Source of the DNA: Altererythrobacter aquiaggeris
Lineage (GTDB): Bacteria; Pseudomonadota; Alphaproteobacteria; Sphingomonadales; Sphingomonadaceae
NCBI RefSeq assembly: GCF_037154015.1
Contig: NZ_JBANRL010000001.1
Coordinates: forward strand, 310,001-374,000
DNA length: 64,000 bases
Direction: 5' to 3'
The translations under genes were made by a program, and so were the position numbers. How positions within the stretch are numbered: the stretch's first letter is position 1; each line of letters opens with the position of its first letter. The notes under the pieces are model-generated. The model was not told the origin of the DNA. It was given only the letters and a program-made list of their open reading frames with translations, and did no database searches. This document shows positions 24,224-43,867 of the stretch, one piece after another.

Positions 24224-24248
24224 GGAACATTCGCTGTAAACGCACGTT
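24224..24248 (+). promoter_or_regulatory. EcfG-type (general stress sigma) promoter candidate
   Basis: GGAAC at 24224-24228 and CGTT at 24245-24248 are separated by 16 nt, the consensus for the alphaproteobacterial EcfG sigma factor. The -10 element ends 25 nt before the CHRD lipoprotein start, leaving room for the AAAGGAG ribosome binding site. One exact match per window of this size is expected by chance, so position is the main support. Confidence 0.6.
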
Positions 24249-24273: not shown

Positions 24274-24717
24274 ATGATCCGACACATCGCCCTGGCCGCC
24301 GCCGCAACTGTTACCCTGACCGGCTGCGAGACGTTGGAAGAAGCATATACCGAACGGACTTCTTCGACCTACCGGGCTGAACTGTCAGGGGCCAACGAAG
24401 TCCATGCGGGTGATCCCGATGGCTCCGGATCGGCAGAAATTAGCGTGGCGGATGAATTGACCCGTGTCTGCTGGGATCTGAACAAATTGCAAAACCTTGG
24501 CCCGATCACCGGAGCGCACGTCCACCGCGGTGCTGCCGGGACGGACGGACCTGTCGTTCTGGTGTTGCAACAGGCTACCGAAGGCGGATGGCGCGGATGC
24601 AGCAGCGACACGTCATGGGTGCAAAAGGCGTTTGACGAAGGATTGTCCAATTATTACGTCAACGTTCACACCGTAGAATATCCCAAAGGCGCGATACGCG
24701 GACAATTGCAGCGATAA
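24274..24717 (+). CDS. CHRD-domain lipoprotein
   Basis: A 147-residue exported protein with lipobox LTGC near residue 18. The body is a CHRD domain: YRAELSGANEVHAGDPDGSG, then GAHVHRGAAGTDGPVV and the C-terminal YYVNVHTVEYPKGAIRGQL. CHRD domains are beta-rich modules of unclear function in bacteria. The start at ATG 24274 is fixed by AAAGGAG 8 nt upstream. An EcfG-type promoter lies at 24224-24248, suggesting stress induction. Confidence 0.86.
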   Translation: MIRHIALAAAATVTLTGCETLEEAYTERTSSTYRAELSGANEVHAGDPDGSGSAEISVADELTRVCWDLNKLQNLGPITGAHVHRGAAGTDGPVVLVLQQATEGGWRGCSSDTSWVQKAFDEGLSNYYVNVHTVEYPKGAIRGQLQR

Positions 24718-36474: not shown

Positions 36475-36941
36475 GAATCGTTACCCTGCATTTGGTGATC
36501 AACGGAACAAGCGCCGCGAACGATCCCGAGCAGTAATATTTCACACCCTGATTCGAATGATTCAAAACCCGCCGCGAACACTTTTCCGCAAAAATTTTTT
36601 TACCGGATTCATTTCACCCCTTGCGCGATTCAAGACCCTAGGCTTTCCGGCGCGTCGCGGCGTTGCAACAATGTAATACACCCGCGCGCCGTAAGGTTAA
36701 TGCCGATTTACCCTCTTGCATCGCGATTCCACTTTGAGCACTATGGCTATGGGCCAGACGTTGGGGGACCTACTAGATACTGTTACCGAGTGTGATGCGC
36801 CAGATTCGCGTCCTCGGGCAGATTCGGGTGGTCAAACCCCATCATTGCACCCGACCGGGGAAAGAAAGGGGATAAGTTTTTCCCCTCTGCAGGGCCGGCT
36901 CATGGTAGGCAGGACAACAGTCCGCCGAATCGAACGAAAGC
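36475..36941. other. Long leader region before nrdA
   Basis: About 470 nt without a convincing gene. An open frame continuous with nrdA runs back to 36716, but it shows no conserved NrdA sequence. The region has AT-rich tracts near 36590 and a perfect 6-bp hairpin, AGGGGA at 36867-36872 with TCCCCT at 36881-36886. I found no NrdR-box pair or cobalamin riboswitch. Confidence 0.5.
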
Positions 36942-36967
36942 GGAACAGCGGTGCGGGCAAGCGCGTT
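36942..36967 (+). promoter_or_regulatory. EcfG-type promoter candidate before nrdA
   Basis: GGAAC at 36942-36946 and CGTT at 36964-36967 are separated by 17 nt. The -10 ends 24 nt before the ATG at 36992, which fits a short leader and supports that start. It would put ribonucleotide reductase partly under general stress control. Confidence 0.5.
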
Positions 36968-36991
36968 GTTCGAACAGGACGGGACGAGTTG

Positions 36992-39070
36992 ATGGAATTC
37001 AGAACTGGGGACGATGCGGCGATGGGGCTGGATCAGGAAAACGACACTGCGGTTACAGACAGCCAGGCTGCCAGGACAGTTTCCGGCAGCGCGTCCGATA
37101 AAACGCCCAAGGGCAAGAAAGCACAAGCGGCAATGACGATGGATAGAGACGACATGGGTAGCGACGGGCTTGTGGCAGAAAAGGCTGGCGAGGCACTGGC
37201 CGGCGCCATGAAACAAGCGGTCAAGGTCGAGGATGACAGCAAGCGCGTAAACGCGCGCCGTTTTGCTGTCGTGACCGATGAAACGCGCGATGCCTTGCTG
37301 ACCGAATTCGGCAAGGAAACGCTGATCGACCGCTATCTGCTTCCGGGCGAGAATTTTCAGGATCTGTTCGCCCGTGTGGCCGATGCCTATGCCGATGATC
37401 AGGAGCATGCCCAGCGGCTGTATGATTATATTTCGCGTTTGTGGTTCATGCCCGCAACGCCCGTGCTGTCCAATGGCGGCACCGGGCGCGGCCTGCCGAT
37501 CTCGTGCTATCTGAACTCCGTTTCAGACAGCCTCGACGGCATTGTGAACACCTGGAACGAAAATGTCTGGCTTGCTTCCAAGGGTGGCGGCATCGGTACC
37601 TATTGGGGCAATGTCCGCGGGATTGGCGAGCCGGTTGGTCTGAACGGCAAGACCAGCGGTATCATCCCGTTCGTGCGCGTGATGGACAGTCTGACGCTGG
37701 CAATTTCGCAAGGTTCGCTGCGCCGCGGATCGGCAGCGTGCTATCTCGACGTATCGCACCCTGAAATCGAGGAATTCCTCGAAATCCGCAAGGCATCGGG
37801 CGACTTCAACCGCAAGGCGCTGAACCTGCACCACGGCGTGTTGCTGACCGACAAGTTCATGGAAGCGGTCCGCGCGGGCGAGAAGTTTGACCTGCTGTCG
37901 CCCAAAACGGGCGAAGTGCGCGCCACCGTCGATGCGCGGGCCCTGTTCCAGAAACTGGTCGAAACCCGTCTGGCAACGGGTGAACCCTATATCGTGTTCA
38001 GTGACACGGTGAACCGCATGATGCCCAAGCATCACCGCGAGCTCGGCCTCAAGGTTTCGACCTCCAACCTCTGCAGCGAAATCACGTTGCCGACGGGCAT
38101 CGACCATCTCGGTAATGACCGTACGGCGGTATGCTGCCTGTCTTCGCTCAATCTCGAGAAATGGGATGAGTGGAACGAGGACAAGACCTTTATCGAAGAT
38201 GTCATGCGGATGCTCGACAATGTCCTGCAGGATTACATCGACCGTGCGCCGGCCGAAATGGCCCGTGCGAAATATTCCGCCATGCGCGAACGCAGCGTGG
38301 GCCTGGGCGTCATGGGGTTCCACTCCTTCCTCCAGTCCAAAAACATTACGCTAGAAGGATCCATGGCGAAGGTCTGGAACCTGAAGATGTTCAAACACAT
38401 CAGCGGCAAGGCCGAAGAAGCCTCGCTGATCCTGGCCAAGGAACGCGGCCCCTGTCCCGACGCGGAAGAAACCGGCGCGATGGAACGGTTCAGCTGTAAA
38501 ATGGCGATCGCACCGACCGCATCGATCAGCATCATTTGCGGCGGCACCAGCGCGTGTATCGAACCAATTCCGGCGAATATCTATACGCACAAGACGCTGT
38601 CAGGCAGCTTCGTAGTAAAGAACCCCTATCTGGAAAAACTGCTGCGCGATAAATCGAAGGATTCGACCAACGTGTGGAATTCGATTCTCGAAAATGGCGG
38701 CTCGGTCGCGCATCTCGATTTCCTGAGCGACGAAGAAAAGGCCACCTTCAAAACCAGTTTCGAAGTCGATCAGCGATATTTGCTCGAATACGCCGCCGAC
38801 CGCGCGCCATTCATCGATCAGGCACAAAGCCTCAACCTGTTTATCCCGGCCGATGTGGACAAGTGGGATCTGGCAATGCTGCATTTCCAGGCATGGGAAA
38901 AAGGCATCAAGTCGCTTTATTACCTACGCTCGAAATCGATCCAGCGCGCCGGTTTCGCCGGCGGTTCGGGGGGCGGTGTGGAAGCCGATAACACTGCCGA
39001 AGCCGCAAGGATCGAGCTTGCGGCGGTAGCACCGCAGACCGATTACGAAGAATGCCTCAGCTGCCAATGA
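36992..39070 (+). CDS. nrdA: Ribonucleoside-diphosphate reductase, class I alpha subunit
   Basis: The 692-residue catalytic subunit makes deoxyribonucleotides. Conserved sequence starts near residue 100 (RDALLTEFGKETLIDRYLLP). Cys172 in GRGLPISCYLNSV and the later cysteine in TAVCCLSSLNLE form the redox pair, TSNLCSEITLP holds the radical cysteine with its Asn and Glu neighbours, and the tail ECLSCQ relays reducing power. Residues 1-90 are Ala/Asp/Lys-rich and variable. nrdB lies 1.8 kb downstream, separated by four small genes, unlike the usual adjacent pair. Confidence 0.94.
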   Translation: MEFRTGDDAAMGLDQENDTAVTDSQAARTVSGSASDKTPKGKKAQAAMTMDRDDMGSDGLVAEKAGEALAGAMKQAVKVEDDSKRVNARRFAVVTDETRDALLTEFGKETLIDRYLLPGENFQDLFARVADAYADDQEHAQRLYDYISRLWFMPATPVLSNGGTGRGLPISCYLNSVSDSLDGIVNTWNENVWLASKGGGIGTYWGNVRGIGEPVGLNGKTSGIIPFVRVMDSLTLAISQGSLRRGSAACYLDVSHPEIEEFLEIRKASGDFNRKALNLHHGVLLTDKFMEAVRAGEKFDLLSPKTGEVRATVDARALFQKLVETRLATGEPYIVFSDTVNRMMPKHHRELGLKVSTSNLCSEITLPTGIDHLGNDRTAVCCLSSLNLEKWDEWNEDKTFIEDVMRMLDNVLQDYIDRAPAEMARAKYSAMRERSVGLGVMGFHSFLQSKNITLEGSMAKVWNLKMFKHISGKAEEASLILAKERGPCPDAEETGAMERFSCKMAIAPTASISIICGGTSACIEPIPANIYTHKTLSGSFVVKNPYLEKLLRDKSKDSTNVWNSILENGGSVAHLDFLSDEEKATFKTSFEVDQRYLLEYAADRAPFIDQAQSLNLFIPADVDKWDLAMLHFQAWEKGIKSLYYLRSKSIQRAGFAGGSGGGVEADNTAEAARIELAAVAPQTDYEECLSCQ

Positions 39071-39147
39071 TGTGGCTTGGCATCTTCGGGCCGCGATGCG
39101 GTTACCGGTCAGGCTCGAAAAACCGCGGGAAGTAACCCTGTGCCGAT

Positions 39148-39342
39148 ATGGCCACGCTGACATTCTATATCTTCGCGATTATCCTGCTTGCCATCCTCGG
39201 CTTCGTGATGTGGAGCGGTGTAGGCGCCAAGCGGAAAACGCTGGGGCGCGGGTTTGGTCTGATGGCATTTGTCGCCGCGGCATGGCTGGCGATGGAGCTA
39301 TACGACATCCTCACCTTAACCGGATTTGGAGATAAGGCATAA
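39148..39342 (+). CDS. Small two-helix membrane protein
   Basis: A 64-residue protein with hydrophobic stretches at about 4-22 and 38-52 and a basic loop GAKRKTLGRGF between them. It starts 77 nt after nrdA and ends at a convergent hairpin. The ribosome binding site is weak and no family was recognised. Confidence 0.5.
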   Translation: MATLTFYIFAIILLAILGFVMWSGVGAKRKTLGRGFGLMAFVAAAWLAMELYDILTLTGFGDKA

Positions 39343-39349
39343 ATTCGAA

Positions 39350-39393
39350 CCCCCGACCTCACGTTCCTGTTTCCAGGTCAGTGAGGCCGGGGG
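39350..39393. terminator. Hairpin between convergent genes
   Basis: CCCCCGACCTCAC (39350-39362) pairs with GTGAGGCCGGGGG (39381-39393), one mismatch in 13, with an inner CCTG/CAGG stem. There is no T run on either side, so it is a terminator-like or RNA-stabilising structure between convergent genes and not a classical intrinsic terminator. Confidence 0.5.
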
Positions 39394-39439
39394 CCCTATT
39401 GCTACTGTCCTTGCGGAGGAGTAGAAACCGGTCGGGTGC

Positions 39440-39664
39440 TTAGGCCTTTACGCCCGGCGGGATCGTCGCGTCCGCCTTCATATAAATGCGATTATCGTCG
39501 ATCTTCTCGATGTCGTCGATTTTGAGGAAGTGATGTGCATTGTCATCGCTGTCCGATTTGGTCAGCTTGATCGCATCATCCTTAACATGATCGACAGTGC
39601 CGATATGCTGACCCTTGCAATCGGTAACTTCCATGTGTTCCTTGATTCGTAGCTTCTCGAACAT
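39440..39664 (-). CDS. DUF2171 family protein
   Basis: A 74-residue, charged protein: IKEHMEVTDCKGQHIGTVDH, then DDAIKLTKSDS and FLKIDDIEKIDDNRIYM. This matches DUF2171, a PRC-barrel-like family often found in stress regulons. ATG 39664 follows GAGGAAA. A near-consensus EcfG promoter (GGAAC-N16-CATT, one mismatch) lies at 39726-39702 upstream. Confidence 0.83.
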   Translation of the reverse strand: MFEKLRIKEHMEVTDCKGQHIGTVDHVKDDAIKLTKSDSDDNAHHFLKIDDIEKIDDNRIYMKADATIPPGVKA

Positions 39665-39701
39665 AATTTCCTCTTTCGTTTTCAATTACCTATGCCTAAT
39701 C

Positions 39702-39726
39702 AATGGTTGGGGCGTTCAGTCGTTCC
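39702..39726 (-). promoter_or_regulatory. Near-consensus EcfG promoter before the DUF2171 gene
   Basis: Read leftward, GGAAC (39726-39722), 16 nt, then CATT (39705-39702), 37 nt before the start codon. The -10 differs from CGTT at one base, so this is weaker than the exact matches elsewhere in the window. Confidence 0.3.
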
Positions 39727-39863
39727 GCAGTTCATCGCGGATGATGCACGGCTGGTTTCGGCAACGCCGGACCCCGCAAAAAATCGCGCGTGCAATCCCC
39801 TCTTGCCCCAAATATTCTTTACTCTATGGGCTCTGGCAAACGGTTCGTACCTAAGGATTTCTC

Positions 39864-40253
39864 TTGCGCAAATGGCACCGCTGGCTGTCGGTCTTTTTCG
39901 GCATTTTCCTGTTTTTCATCGCAACGACCGGCTTGCTTAGCCAGGCCGCTGATCTGTGGCCGCAGCCTGAATTGACTGCGGCGCAGCTTGCGACGCAGGA
40001 ACCGCCAGCCGGCTTCGTATGTCCCGGGGGCTGGAACTGCCGCCCGCCAACAACCGATACCGGCATCGCATCATGGAAGGGATTTTTCCACCACATCCAT
40101 TCGGGCGAGGAGTTTGGACCTGTCGGCATCGCGATCTCGATCCTGTCAGGCGTCGCGCTGCTTTTTTTCAGCTTCAGCGGGCTGTGGATGTATGTGCGTA
40201 TGTGGTCTGCGCGCAAAACCGGCGGCGGCAATGGCGGGATGTTCTGGAAGTAG
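39864..40253 (+). CDS. PepSY-associated membrane protein
   Basis: A 129-residue protein with an N-terminal helix after RKWHRWLSVFFG and a second near residues 90-112 ending SGLWMYVRMW. The arrangement RKxHRW...HSGEEFG...SGLWMY is typical of short PepSY-TM proteins. A periplasmic loop contains two cysteines (FVCPGGWNC). It starts with TTG at 39864, supported by AAGGAT. Possibly linked to iron or redox processes in the membrane, as for the family; unproven here. Confidence 0.75.
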   Translation: MRKWHRWLSVFFGIFLFFIATTGLLSQAADLWPQPELTAAQLATQEPPAGFVCPGGWNCRPPTTDTGIASWKGFFHHIHSGEEFGPVGIAISILSGVALLFFSFSGLWMYVRMWSARKTGGGNGGMFWK

Positions 40254-40280
40254 CGCCGGGGAAGGCGCCATGCTGCCGCG

Positions 40281-40565
40281 CTACTTTTTTTCGGGTTTTT
40301 CGGGATTGGCGACCGGCTGCGTTTTCTTCGATGGCAGCTTCGGCGCGTCTTCCGCCTTCTTGTTCATCGAATCGGGTGTGTTGACCTCATATTGGTCATA
40401 GGCCTCGCCGCTGCGCCCATCGGACTGGTACTGCTGCCCGGGGGAGGCAAAATCGCCTCCGTCGCGCGCACTCAATTCTCCTCGTTCGGTACGCTGCAAA
40501 TCGCCGATGTCGATACCGTATTGCTGGCATTCGGTGCCGGGCTGGTTCAGATCATATTGCGCCAT
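40281..40565 (-). CDS. Small hydrophilic protein, likely stress-induced
   Basis: A 94-residue protein, rich in Gln, Asp and Lys and probably disordered. It begins MAQYDLNQPGTECQQYGID, and its tail is a run of Lys, Pro and Glu. No family was recognised. GGGAG lies upstream of ATG 40565, and an exact EcfG-type promoter lies at 40662-40637. Together these support a real gene. It converges with the PepSY gene. Confidence 0.55.
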   Translation of the reverse strand: MAQYDLNQPGTECQQYGIDIGDLQRTERGELSARDGGDFASPGQQYQSDGRSGEAYDQYEVNTPDSMNKKAEDAPKLPSKKTQPVANPEKPEKK

Positions 40566-40636
40566 AGCTGCACTCCCACTTGCGATTGTCGGGCAGTGAT
40601 TTGCCCGGTTAACCGGCTTCACCCTCTGTCCAATCC

Positions 40637-40662
40637 AACGGCTATGCGGGCCGATAAGTTCC
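40637..40662 (-). promoter_or_regulatory. EcfG-type promoter candidate (leftward)
   Basis: Read leftward, GGAAC (40662-40658), 17 nt, CGTT (40640-40637). It points to the small hydrophilic gene starting at 40565, 71 nt downstream. Exact consensus and correct orientation in an intergenic region are the support. Confidence 0.5.
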
Positions 40663-40899: not shown

Positions 40900-41961
40900 A
40901 TGTCGTTGCTCGAAGCCCGGAAGACCTACAAGCCCTTCGAATATCCCTGGGCTTATGACTTCTGGAAACGCCAGCAACAGATCCACTGGATGCCCGAAGA
41001 AGTTCCGCTGGGCGAAGACTGCCGCGACTGGGCGCAGAACCTCAGCGATCACGAGCGTAACCTGCTCACGCAAATCTTCCGCTTCTTCACCCAGGCCGAT
41101 ATCGAGGTGCAGGATTGCTACCACGAAAAATACGGCCGCGTGTTCAAACCCACCGAAATCAAAATGATGCTCGCCGCGTTTTCCAATATGGAAACGGTGC
41201 ACATCGCGGCCTATTCTCATCTGCTCGACACGATCGGCATGCCCGAAAGCGAATATGCCATGTTCCTCGAATATGAGGAAATGAAGGCCAAGCACGATTA
41301 TCTGCAGGAATTCGGCGTCGATACGGACGAGGATATTGCCCGCACGCTGGCGATGTTCGGCGGCTTCACCGAAGGGCTGCAACTGTTCGCCAGCTTCGCG
41401 ATGCTGATGAACTTCCCGCGCTTCAACAAGATGAAGGGCATGGGCCAGATCGTCAGCTGGAGCGTGCGCGACGAAAGCCTGCACTGCGAAGGCATCATCA
41501 AGATGTTCCATGCTTTCTGCGAGGAACGCCAGTGCCTGACCAAATCGGTCAAGGAAGACATTATGGATGCCTGTCAGAAAACTGTGCGTCTGGAAGACAA
41601 CTTCATCGATCTGGCGTTCAGCGATGGCCCCGTGCCCGGCATGACCGCGAAAGAAATCAAGAAATACATCCGCTACATCGCCGACTGGCGCCTGCAGCAG
41701 CTGGGTCTGCCCGCGATTTACATGGTGGAAGACCACCCGCTACCATGGCTCGCCCCGCTATTGAACGGTGTGGAACACGCCAACTTCTTCGAAACCCGCG
41801 CAACCGAATATTCAAAGGGCGCAACCAAGGGCAACTGGCAAGACGTCTGGTCCAGCTTCGACAACCGCAAAAAAGCAAAAGCGGGCGACGAGGCTAATGA
41901 CGAAGTGGTTGATGACGGACCGGGCCTGTTTGAGGATAGCGGGACGGTGGCTGCGGAGTAG
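40900..41961 (+). CDS. nrdB: Ribonucleoside-diphosphate reductase, class I beta subunit
   Basis: The 353-residue radical-generating partner of NrdA. The di-iron ligands can be placed by spacing against E. coli R2: Asp67, Glu98 and His101 in SNMETVHIAAY, with the radical tyrosine Tyr105 four residues after the histidine, and the second pair in SVRDESLHCEG. The C-terminal tail is acidic (GDEANDEVVDDGPGLFEDSG), fitting the peptide that docks on NrdA. Presence of the tyrosine excludes the tyrosine-less class Ic. GGAGA precedes ATG 40900. Confidence 0.95.
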   Translation: MSLLEARKTYKPFEYPWAYDFWKRQQQIHWMPEEVPLGEDCRDWAQNLSDHERNLLTQIFRFFTQADIEVQDCYHEKYGRVFKPTEIKMMLAAFSNMETVHIAAYSHLLDTIGMPESEYAMFLEYEEMKAKHDYLQEFGVDTDEDIARTLAMFGGFTEGLQLFASFAMLMNFPRFNKMKGMGQIVSWSVRDESLHCEGIIKMFHAFCEERQCLTKSVKEDIMDACQKTVRLEDNFIDLAFSDGPVPGMTAKEIKKYIRYIADWRLQQLGLPAIYMVEDHPLPWLAPLLNGVEHANFFETRATEYSKGATKGNWQDVWSSFDNRKKAKAGDEANDEVVDDGPGLFEDSGTVAAE

Positions 41962-41964
41962 TTC

Positions 41965-42016
41965 TTGACGAGAACGAAGTAAGAACATAGCAATGCGATC
42001 AGAGGGAGTATCGCAT
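41965..42016 (+). promoter_or_regulatory. Restriction-modification promoter region with LexA-like box and start-codon hairpin
   Basis: TTGACG (41965-41970) and TAGCAA (41988-41993), 17 nt apart, form a possible promoter. In the spacer GAAC-N7-GAAC (41972-41986) matches the alphaproteobacterial SOS box. ATGCGAT (41993-41999) and ATCGCAT (42010-42016) then form a perfect 7-bp hairpin with the ribosome binding sequence GAGGGAG in its loop and the first bases of the start codon in its stem. Confidence 0.5.
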
Positions 42017-42977
42017 GCATTCGATTGAATTTTGTGCTGGCGCTGGCGGACAGGCGCTCGGTCTTGAACAGGCCGGGTTCCGTCATGAGGCTTTGGTCGA
42101 GATCGAGCCTGAATTTGCGAAAACTCTGAGGCTAAACCGTCCAGAATGGGATGTACGCGCAACGGACATGGCCGAATTTGATGGCCGTCCTTTCAAAGGC
42201 GTTGAACTTTTAACAGCGGGCTTGCCTTGCCCCCCTTTCTCGGTTGCCGGGAAGCAACTTGGTGAGAAAGACGAACGCAACCTCTTCCCTGCCGCGCTGC
42301 GACTAATTGATGAAATTAGGCCGAAGGCGGTAATGATCGAGAATGTGCGTGGCTTTCTCTCGGCAGTTTTTGAGGACTACAGAAAACAACTCCGCACCCA
42401 ACTCTCTAAGCTTGGATATAAAACGGAATGGAGATTGCTCAATGCGTCAGATTTTGGCGTGTCGCAGCTACGTCCACGGGTTGTCATTGTAGCGATCCGA
42501 AATGACTTGGTTGATGCCTTTGAATGGCCTGAGGTCCAGCCGCACAATCCACCTTCGGTCGGGCAGCTTCTTCACGACCTTATGAAAGAGGATGGCTGGC
42601 GCGGAGCGGATAAGTGGGCAGCACAGGCCAGCGATATCGCGCCAACCCTTGTTGGTGGTTCCAAAAAACATGGTGGACCTGACCTTGGGCCGACCCGAGC
42701 ACGCAAGGCATGGGCATCGCTGGGTGTTGAAGGCAAGAGTTTGGCCAATGCTCCGCCTGAACGCGATTTCGTAGGGATGCCGCGACTGACTCTTCGAATG
42801 GCTGCACGGGTCCAGGGGTTTCCGGACGATTGGCAGTTCTCGGGCGGTAAGACTGTGAGCTATCGACAAATCGGCAATGCATTTCCGCCACCAGTTGCAA
42901 GGGCTGTTGCCAAGAATTTACGGATAGCTCTTGGCGTCAACCGAACAATTTCTGCCGCTAATTTTAAAGCCGCATGA
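42015..42977 (+). CDS. DNA (cytosine-5) methyltransferase of a type II R-M system
   Basis: A 320-residue C5 methyltransferase. Motif I is FCAGAGGQALGLE, motif IV has catalytic Cys72 in GLPCPPFS, motif VI is IENVRG, motif VIII QLRPRVVIV, and motif X YRQIGNAFPPPVA. The target-recognition part between VIII and X is short. It overlaps the endonuclease start by 4 nt. Base composition is lower in G+C than its neighbours (a sampled 60-nt line is 45%, against 63% in argB), fitting recent acquisition. It should protect the host from its partner. Confidence 0.93.
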   Translation: MHSIEFCAGAGGQALGLEQAGFRHEALVEIEPEFAKTLRLNRPEWDVRATDMAEFDGRPFKGVELLTAGLPCPPFSVAGKQLGEKDERNLFPAALRLIDEIRPKAVMIENVRGFLSAVFEDYRKQLRTQLSKLGYKTEWRLLNASDFGVSQLRPRVVIVAIRNDLVDAFEWPEVQPHNPPSVGQLLHDLMKEDGWRGADKWAAQASDIAPTLVGGSKKHGGPDLGPTRARKAWASLGVEGKSLANAPPERDFVGMPRLTLRMAARVQGFPDDWQFSGGKTVSYRQIGNAFPPPVARAVAKNLRIALGVNRTISAANFKAA

Positions 42978-43867
42978 CCCATTTGGGAGGCATTCAGCGG
43001 TTTCCCGTCGCGGCTGAACATCAAGACTTTGATCATCTACAAAAGTTAGAGTCAGACTTGTTGGAGGCTGTGGGCGGATGGCAGGCTTTTGAAGAAAAGC
43101 TGCGCGGATTTTTCAGGTCAGCAATTGATGAGGTGATTGATACGGCCCGTACCGGACGATTCTTTTTCTCGGATCTGGAAAAGACGGAGAAGACTTATCT
43201 GGGTACCAAATTTGAGATCATTCTCCGCGATTGGTTGGGCGTTCCGAAAGGAGTAAAGCTTGATCTGCTGATCGGCGGTGAGGAAGTCGATGTAAAAACG
43301 TCTACATCCGCTGCGAGAGGCGGTTGGATGATTCCACCAGAGGCATTTGAGCAATTATGCATTCTAATCAAAGTGAACGAGCTCAAAGCACGATGTGATT
43401 TTGGCCTTGTCCGCGCGCGATCTGATTATCTGCGGAGCAGTAGTAACCGGGACTCGAAGACTGGGTTGTCGGCTTCCGGAATGGCAAATATTTGGTGGAT
43501 GGCTAAAGATTTTGGATACACGCCGAACTTTTGGAGTTTGACAACTGCAGACGACCGTACAGCTATTATGACGGGCGGCGGTAAGCGTCGGCTCGCGACA
43601 CTGTTTGAAAGGTTCCAAGGCGTAGGGATCTCTCGCATCCAGATTGAAGCAGTGGCCTCGCAGGACGACTTCATGAAACGTCTTCGGAAGAATGGGGGCG
43701 CTCGTGATCTTCTCTCTCCGAAAAATATCGCGGTTCTTTATTCTGAGATAGATGCGCCCGTGATGAGAGAATTGGGCATCGCCTTTGGATCGCGTGAATT
43801 TGTTTCTTATCAGGCGAAAACGTCAGCTGAAATTGCTCTCCTGAAAAGTGCGGGCCATTTGGATTAG
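42974..43867 (+). CDS. NaeI-family type II restriction endonuclease
   Basis: A 297-residue protein. RTGRFFFSDLEKTEKTYLGT and GGWMIPPEAFEQL match the NaeI endonuclease domain. The active-site set Glu81, Asp97, Asp106, Lys108 (in KFEIILRDWLG, KLDLLIG and EVDVKTS) has spacings 16, 9 and 2, the same as NaeI Glu70, Asp86, Asp95, Lys97 as I recall them. The C-terminal part from about 170 would be the CAP-like second DNA-binding domain. If specificity is kept, the site is GCCGGC. It overlaps the next, convergent gene by 4 nt. Confidence 0.82.
   Translation: MTHLGGIQRFPVAAEHQDFDHLQKLESDLLEAVGGWQAFEEKLRGFFRSAIDEVIDTARTGRFFFSDLEKTEKTYLGTKFEIILRDWLGVPKGVKLDLLIGGEEVDVKTSTSAARGGWMIPPEAFEQLCILIKVNELKARCDFGLVRARSDYLRSSSNRDSKTGLSASGMANIWWMAKDFGYTPNFWSLTTADDRTAIMTGGGKRRLATLFERFQGVGISRIQIEAVASQDDFMKRLRKNGGARDLLSPKNIAVLYSEIDAPVMRELGIAFGSREFVSYQAKTSAEIALLKSAGHLD

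Follow-up and report, generated by a model that had tools for sequence, protein, structure and literature searches.

Judged from sequence comparison, the leader of nrdA, the gene for the large subunit of class I ribonucleotide reductase, carries a predicted operator for the SOS repressor LexA in Altererythrobacter aquiaggeris. We analysed a stretch of 64,000 nucleotides (nt) of this genome (contig NZ_JBANRL010000001.1, positions 310,001 to 374,000; hereafter the window, in whose own numbering positions are given). A first-pass annotation of it had proposed promoters of the stress sigma factor EcfG around nrdA and nrdB and before a CHRD lipoprotein gene. We consider nrdA most likely to be LexA-repressed and damage-induced, which suggests that DNA precursors are made on a damage signal in these bacteria. 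It is quite probable that both parts of our reading hold together, i.e. that the nrdA leader contains a LexA operator and that the genes for a CHRD lipoprotein, a DUF2171 protein and a 94-residue protein are members of the PhyR-NepR-EcfG regulon with EcfG promoters. The support lies in the motifs, the specificity of their spacers, their conservation, the presence of the nrdA repeat before SOS genes and the presence of lexA, recA, ecfG, nepR and phyR in the genome.

LexA bound to the operator at 36932-36946 would block transcription of nrdA. Upon DNA damage RecA filaments would trigger the self-cleavage of LexA, nrdA expression would then rise, and more deoxynucleoside triphosphates (dNTPs) would become available for repair synthesis. 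The CHRD, DUF2171 and 94-residue protein genes would be transcribed by EcfG within the general stress regulon.

The conserved repeat in the nrdA leader

The nrdA gene (36992-39070, plus strand) encodes 692 residues with matches to Pfam Ribonuc_red_lgC (E 2.7e-116) and lgN. Its leader contains the sequence GAACGAAAGCGGAAC at 36932-36946 (plus strand), a direct repeat GAAC-N7-GAAC that spacing and conservation mark as a putative LexA-type SOS operator. The GGAAC at 36942-36946, read in the first-pass annotation as part of an EcfG promoter, is the 3' half of this repeat, which had been overlooked there. As a bare pattern the repeat was not rare in the window, with three occurrences against 1.59 expected.

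Conservation was followed in 81 nrdA leaders, consisting of the window and the best 80, i.e. the closest, of 595 candidate loci. GAAC-N7-GAAC was present in 72 of them, and each of the remaining spacers between 0 and 24 gave 0-4 matches. Since the 80 loci were the closest ones, we also sampled 20 of the 21 lowest-scoring among 34 genomes of the same family. Here the forward repeat was found in 14 of 20 leaders and the reverse repeat in four, with at most one match for other spacers. Among 20 leaders from other families of the order (f2, f4, f5, f6, f7 and f8) the reverse form GTTC-N7-GTTC occurred in eight, namely in 6/6 leaders of f5 and 2/2 of f6, one of these repeats lying far upstream (-362). 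It was absent from the leaders of f2 (three), f4 (two), f7 (two) and f8 (five), and other spacers gave at most four matches (spacer 15). Reversal throughout two other families (8/8) would be expected of an operator in DNA and not of an RNA element.

In the genome of A. aquiaggeris the same repeat precedes lexA, recA, uvrA, uvrD, rmuC and mmcB, which were identified by Pfam. As it is found both in 72/81 nrdA leaders and before these SOS genes, nrdA is probably under LexA. The genome holds 74 GAAC-N7-GAAC sites, 29 of them non-coding. When a matrix made from the 71 other nrdA leaders was scored on these 74 sites, nrdA ranked first and lexA tied third, and the top 11 sites were all non-coding.

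Most of the 72 leaders have a G[CGA]TAG element whose start lies 26-29 nt upstream of the repeat (52 matches), and five have a GCTA element that begins 29 nt downstream of the repeat's first base. Going by alphaproteobacterial -10 elements, we take these to mark a putative promoter beside or over the operator. Further conserved boxes, GGGATAAGTTTTTCCC-like and GCTAG-like, and a GC inverted repeat were seen upstream of the operator at 36850-36931.

Competing readings of the nrdA leader

Several observations weigh against LexA control of nrdA. The repeat was missing in nine of the 81 leaders (L043, L051, L053, L057, L074, L075, L076, L089 and L093), although the leader of L093 is possibly misplaced, as its match begins inside the protein. 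Six of the 20 more distant family leaders lacked the forward repeat. Elsewhere in the class it was found in 4 of the 19 alignable leaders (20 were fetched), no more often than a spacer-2 repeat, and for this reason nothing is claimed there. The bare repeat is frequent in the genome, with 45 of the 74 sites inside genes and 55 sites for the reversed pattern. The matrix scored the recA, uvrD and mmcB boxes low (-2.9, -5.4 and -12.1, respectively) and is therefore partly nrdA-specific. In Sphingopyxis granuli the SOS genes induced in anoxia were lexA, recA, imuAB-dnaE2 and others, with nrdA unnamed (PMC6472365; this and the papers cited below are represented by excerpts, term counts by their main texts). 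Finally, two points concern EcfG. GGAAC-N17-CGTT has been retained upstream of nrdA in both available relatives from the genus, with spacers that have diverged, and the EcfG spacing occurs in 7/81 nrdA leaders, compared with a rough base-composition estimate of 0.6.

In the EcfG-like match of the window (36942-36967, plus strand) the GGAAC coincides with the operator's second half, and the CGTT falls within what may be a hairpin arm. One GGAAC might serve in this genus both as the second LexA half-site and as an EcfG -35 element, with LexA occluding the stress promoter. If so, general stress would raise dNTP synthesis only when the DNA is also damaged. The repeat and the EcfG spacing were indeed both present in all three genus genomes compared (our own and the two relatives), yet we regard such a dual site as rather improbable. 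Downstream of the operator GTT was found as often at offsets 20-21 as at 17-18 (12/61 each), a pattern that EcfG does not explain. Moreover, the CGTT may belong to a 3' stem arm (GTTGTTC-like) pairing with the GAACA of the operator, and the predicted fold of the window leader pairs the two. From the offsets and this fold we infer that the CGTT in the seven nrdA leaders may be such an arm; an EcfG function of the match at 36942-36967 is unlikely.

That nrdA is simply an EcfG target and the SOS-like repeat incidental we consider very improbable. With 24 nt between the exact motif and the start codon, the placement resembles that of other EcfG sites in this genome, and CGTT followed GGAAC in nrdA leaders with spacers of 16-17 in seven cases and with spacers of 8-15 in none. 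Against this stand the 72 leaders with GAAC-N7-GAAC versus seven with EcfG spacing, and EcfG control as the primary explanation was rejected on this difference in conservation. The EcfG spacing was furthermore absent from all 20 more distant family members, and the motif was kept far more often before DUF2171 genes (19/32) than before nrdA (7/81; Fisher p 5e-8).

The least likely reading, by a little, is a structured RNA leader with no LexA operator: folding 70 leaders against shuffles gave mean z values of -1.8 upstream and -1.2 downstream of the repeat, and a 6-pair helix formed by the inverted repeat upstream of the operator was 80.9% paired versus 31.9-59.5% when slid (47 of 58 leaders; the 11 omitted were mostly near-duplicates), but RNAalifold found no consensus structure on those 47 leaders, Rfam gave no match in the nrdA leader at the gathering cut-off (the sole match in the window was a tRNA elsewhere), and the repeat precedes SOS genes and occurs reversed in other families.

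EcfG-type promoters and the stress machinery

The three exact GGAAC-N16/17-CGTT sites of the first-pass annotation were all recovered, at 24224-24248 (plus strand), 36942-36967 (plus strand) and 40662-40637 (minus strand). Counted from the final T of the motif, the ATG followed at 25, 24 and 71 nt, in agreement with the range given there. Its chance estimate was about one match in the window; 100 dinucleotide shuffles gave a mean of 0.87 (standard deviation 0.98). Its argument that three matches are suggestive was weak as far as the number goes, since 7 of the 100 shuffles gave three or more. The whole genome contained 39 exact sites and 74 for a reversed control pattern. As there was no excess, we rejected the raw count as evidence for EcfG; it is the placement that is informative. 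According to a gene caller built for this analysis, non-coding positions accounted for 26/39 exact sites, compared with 4/30 sites with the wrong spacer GGAAC-N11/12-CGTT, 30 of whose 38 genome sites were examined (Fisher p 8.6e-6). At most 300 nt before a start codon on the same strand lay 25/39 exact and 1/30 wrong-spacer sites.

A search of the genome with Pfam for the EcfG system detected nepR, a gene for an ECF sigma factor directly after it, and phyR, whose product has PhyR_sigma2, PhyR_sigma-like and receiver domains. The exact motif precedes both nepR (2298105) and phyR (2295429). The kinase at 6.5-8.0 kilobases (kb) of the window is of the HWE type, as the first-pass annotation had stated (Pfam GAF, PAS and HWE_HK). 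Another histidine kinase gene, of CHASE-HWE type by Pfam, is located between phyR and nepR-ecfG and divergent from nepR (locus L142, 13369-15018; contig C1 of this genome, near 2296-2298 kb). Judged by position, PhyR is more likely to partner with this kinase than with the one in the window.

The CHRD gene (24274-24717, plus strand) encodes 147 residues (Pfam CHRD, E 2.5e-22), with an LTGC near the N-terminus that we took by eye for a lipobox. Its putative promoter, GGAAC-N16-CGTT, is the exact site at 24224-24248. A CHRD homologue was present in 47 of 149 family genomes, neither genus relative being among them. Thirty CHRD loci were examined, one of which was our own genome. The exact CGTT form was found upstream in 11 of the 29 others, and GGTT or TGTT at equal spacing in four more.

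The DUF2171 gene (39440-39664, minus strand; 74 residues, Pfam DUF2171, E 1e-21) was said to be preceded by a copy with one mismatch. This copy, GGAAC-N16-CATT with the mismatch in the -10 element, was confirmed on the minus strand at 39726-39702, with the start codon (39664) following after 37 nt; by chance the window should contain 1.26 matches of this type. A comparison of proteins across the 80 nrd loci yielded 32 relatives, and the exact motif preceded 19 of them (spacer 16 in 7, spacer 17 in 12; one spacer-15 match and one match at an impossible position, in the truncated locus L090, are omitted). Of the 13 without it, 10 had a one-mismatch form starting 55-66 nt upstream. A CATT -10 element is also listed for Sphingomonas melonis in the excerpted part of PMC6599016.

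The third gene (40281-40565, minus strand) encodes a hydrophilic protein of 94 residues that belongs to no known family; Pfam and NCBIfam searches gave no match. The exact motif with a spacer of 17 lies at 40637-40662 (minus strand). The protein could be aligned in only 9/80 loci, at a loose cut-off. We assigned it by its position, and by the string YDQYEVN that it has in common with proteins at the same position in some relatives, to a family beginning with MG[EQ]Y[EA]P. Eighteen loci have a minus-strand open reading frame with such a start, by which alone they were chosen, and the exact motif preceded 17 of them (spacer 17 in 16, spacer 16 in one). All other spacers from 8 to 29 gave zero matches. 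Neither this gene nor the DUF2171 gene had a match in the available loci from the two genus relatives. The gap of 1.8 kb between nrdA and nrdB is occupied by small genes on both strands (39440-40565), and in 10 of the 80 relative loci the minus strand beyond nrdA carried at least two exact motifs of EcfG type.

The first-pass annotation had tied dNTP synthesis and two undescribed small proteins to the general stress response. With the motif conserved before relatives of three genes (CHRD 11/29, DUF2171 19/32, 94-residue protein 17/18), the link stands for these three, which look EcfG-controlled. It did not hold for nrdA (7/81 and 0/20). Nor does any exact match within the window point to nrdB (40900-41961, plus strand; Pfam Ribonuc_red_sm). 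No SOS box was found in the nrdB leader either, where a spacer-7 repeat occurred in 1/70 leaders, no more often than other spacers.

A second SOS-type repeat, GAACGAAGTAAGAAC, lies directly after nrdB at 41972-41986, 28 nt before a gene for a C5 cytosine methyltransferase. A gene for a NaeI-type restriction enzyme follows the methyltransferase gene, and both (42015-43867) have low codon-model scores, as foreign DNA would. It is possible that the restriction system behind GAACGAAGTAAGAAC is under damage control.

Relation to known regulons

The sequence GTTC(N7)GTTC is the exact known LexA consensus of Caulobacter crescentus (PMC12907096). The repeat and its spacer are the same here as in that regulon, and lexA and recA of A. 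aquiaggeris carry the repeat. What differs is the target, here the gene for the aerobic ribonucleotide reductase's large subunit. A count of the string nrd gave 0 for the main text of both PMC12907096 and PMC6473078, and searches of an open-licence library, outside which most subscription journals fall, yielded no account of LexA acting on nrdA in Alphaproteobacteria. In Vibrio cholerae nrdAB rises after mitomycin C, but no binding of LexA to the promoter of nrdA was seen (PMC5963079), whereas a LexA operator is predicted here. For Escherichia coli a rise of nrdAB after ultraviolet irradiation is cited in PMC11002266, in which the authors' own increase of nrdA was not significant. Control of nrdAB in E. 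coli has been attributed to DnaA, Fis and IciA, and for C. crescentus nrdAB an action of DnaA has been proposed (PMC8203912).

For EcfG, GGAAC-N16-CGTT precedes nepR2-ecfG1 with flexible -10 boxes (PMC7083833), and GGAAC-N17-20-GTT has been given with CATT examples (PMC6599016). The sites described here resemble those of the EcfG regulons of Sphingomonas melonis Fr1 and Sphingopyxis granuli TFA in the GGAAC motif, the spacing and the flexible -10 element. Neither DUF2171 nor CHRD occurs in the main texts of PMC7083833 and PMC6599016; likewise, nrd occurs 0 times in the former and nrdA 0 times in the latter.

GGAAC-based scans for EcfG promoters in Alphaproteobacteria can collide with LexA half-sites (GAAC). 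If our reading is true, a LexA operator on nrdA is conserved across many sphingomonads, and dNTP supply would be a true SOS function in these bacteria.

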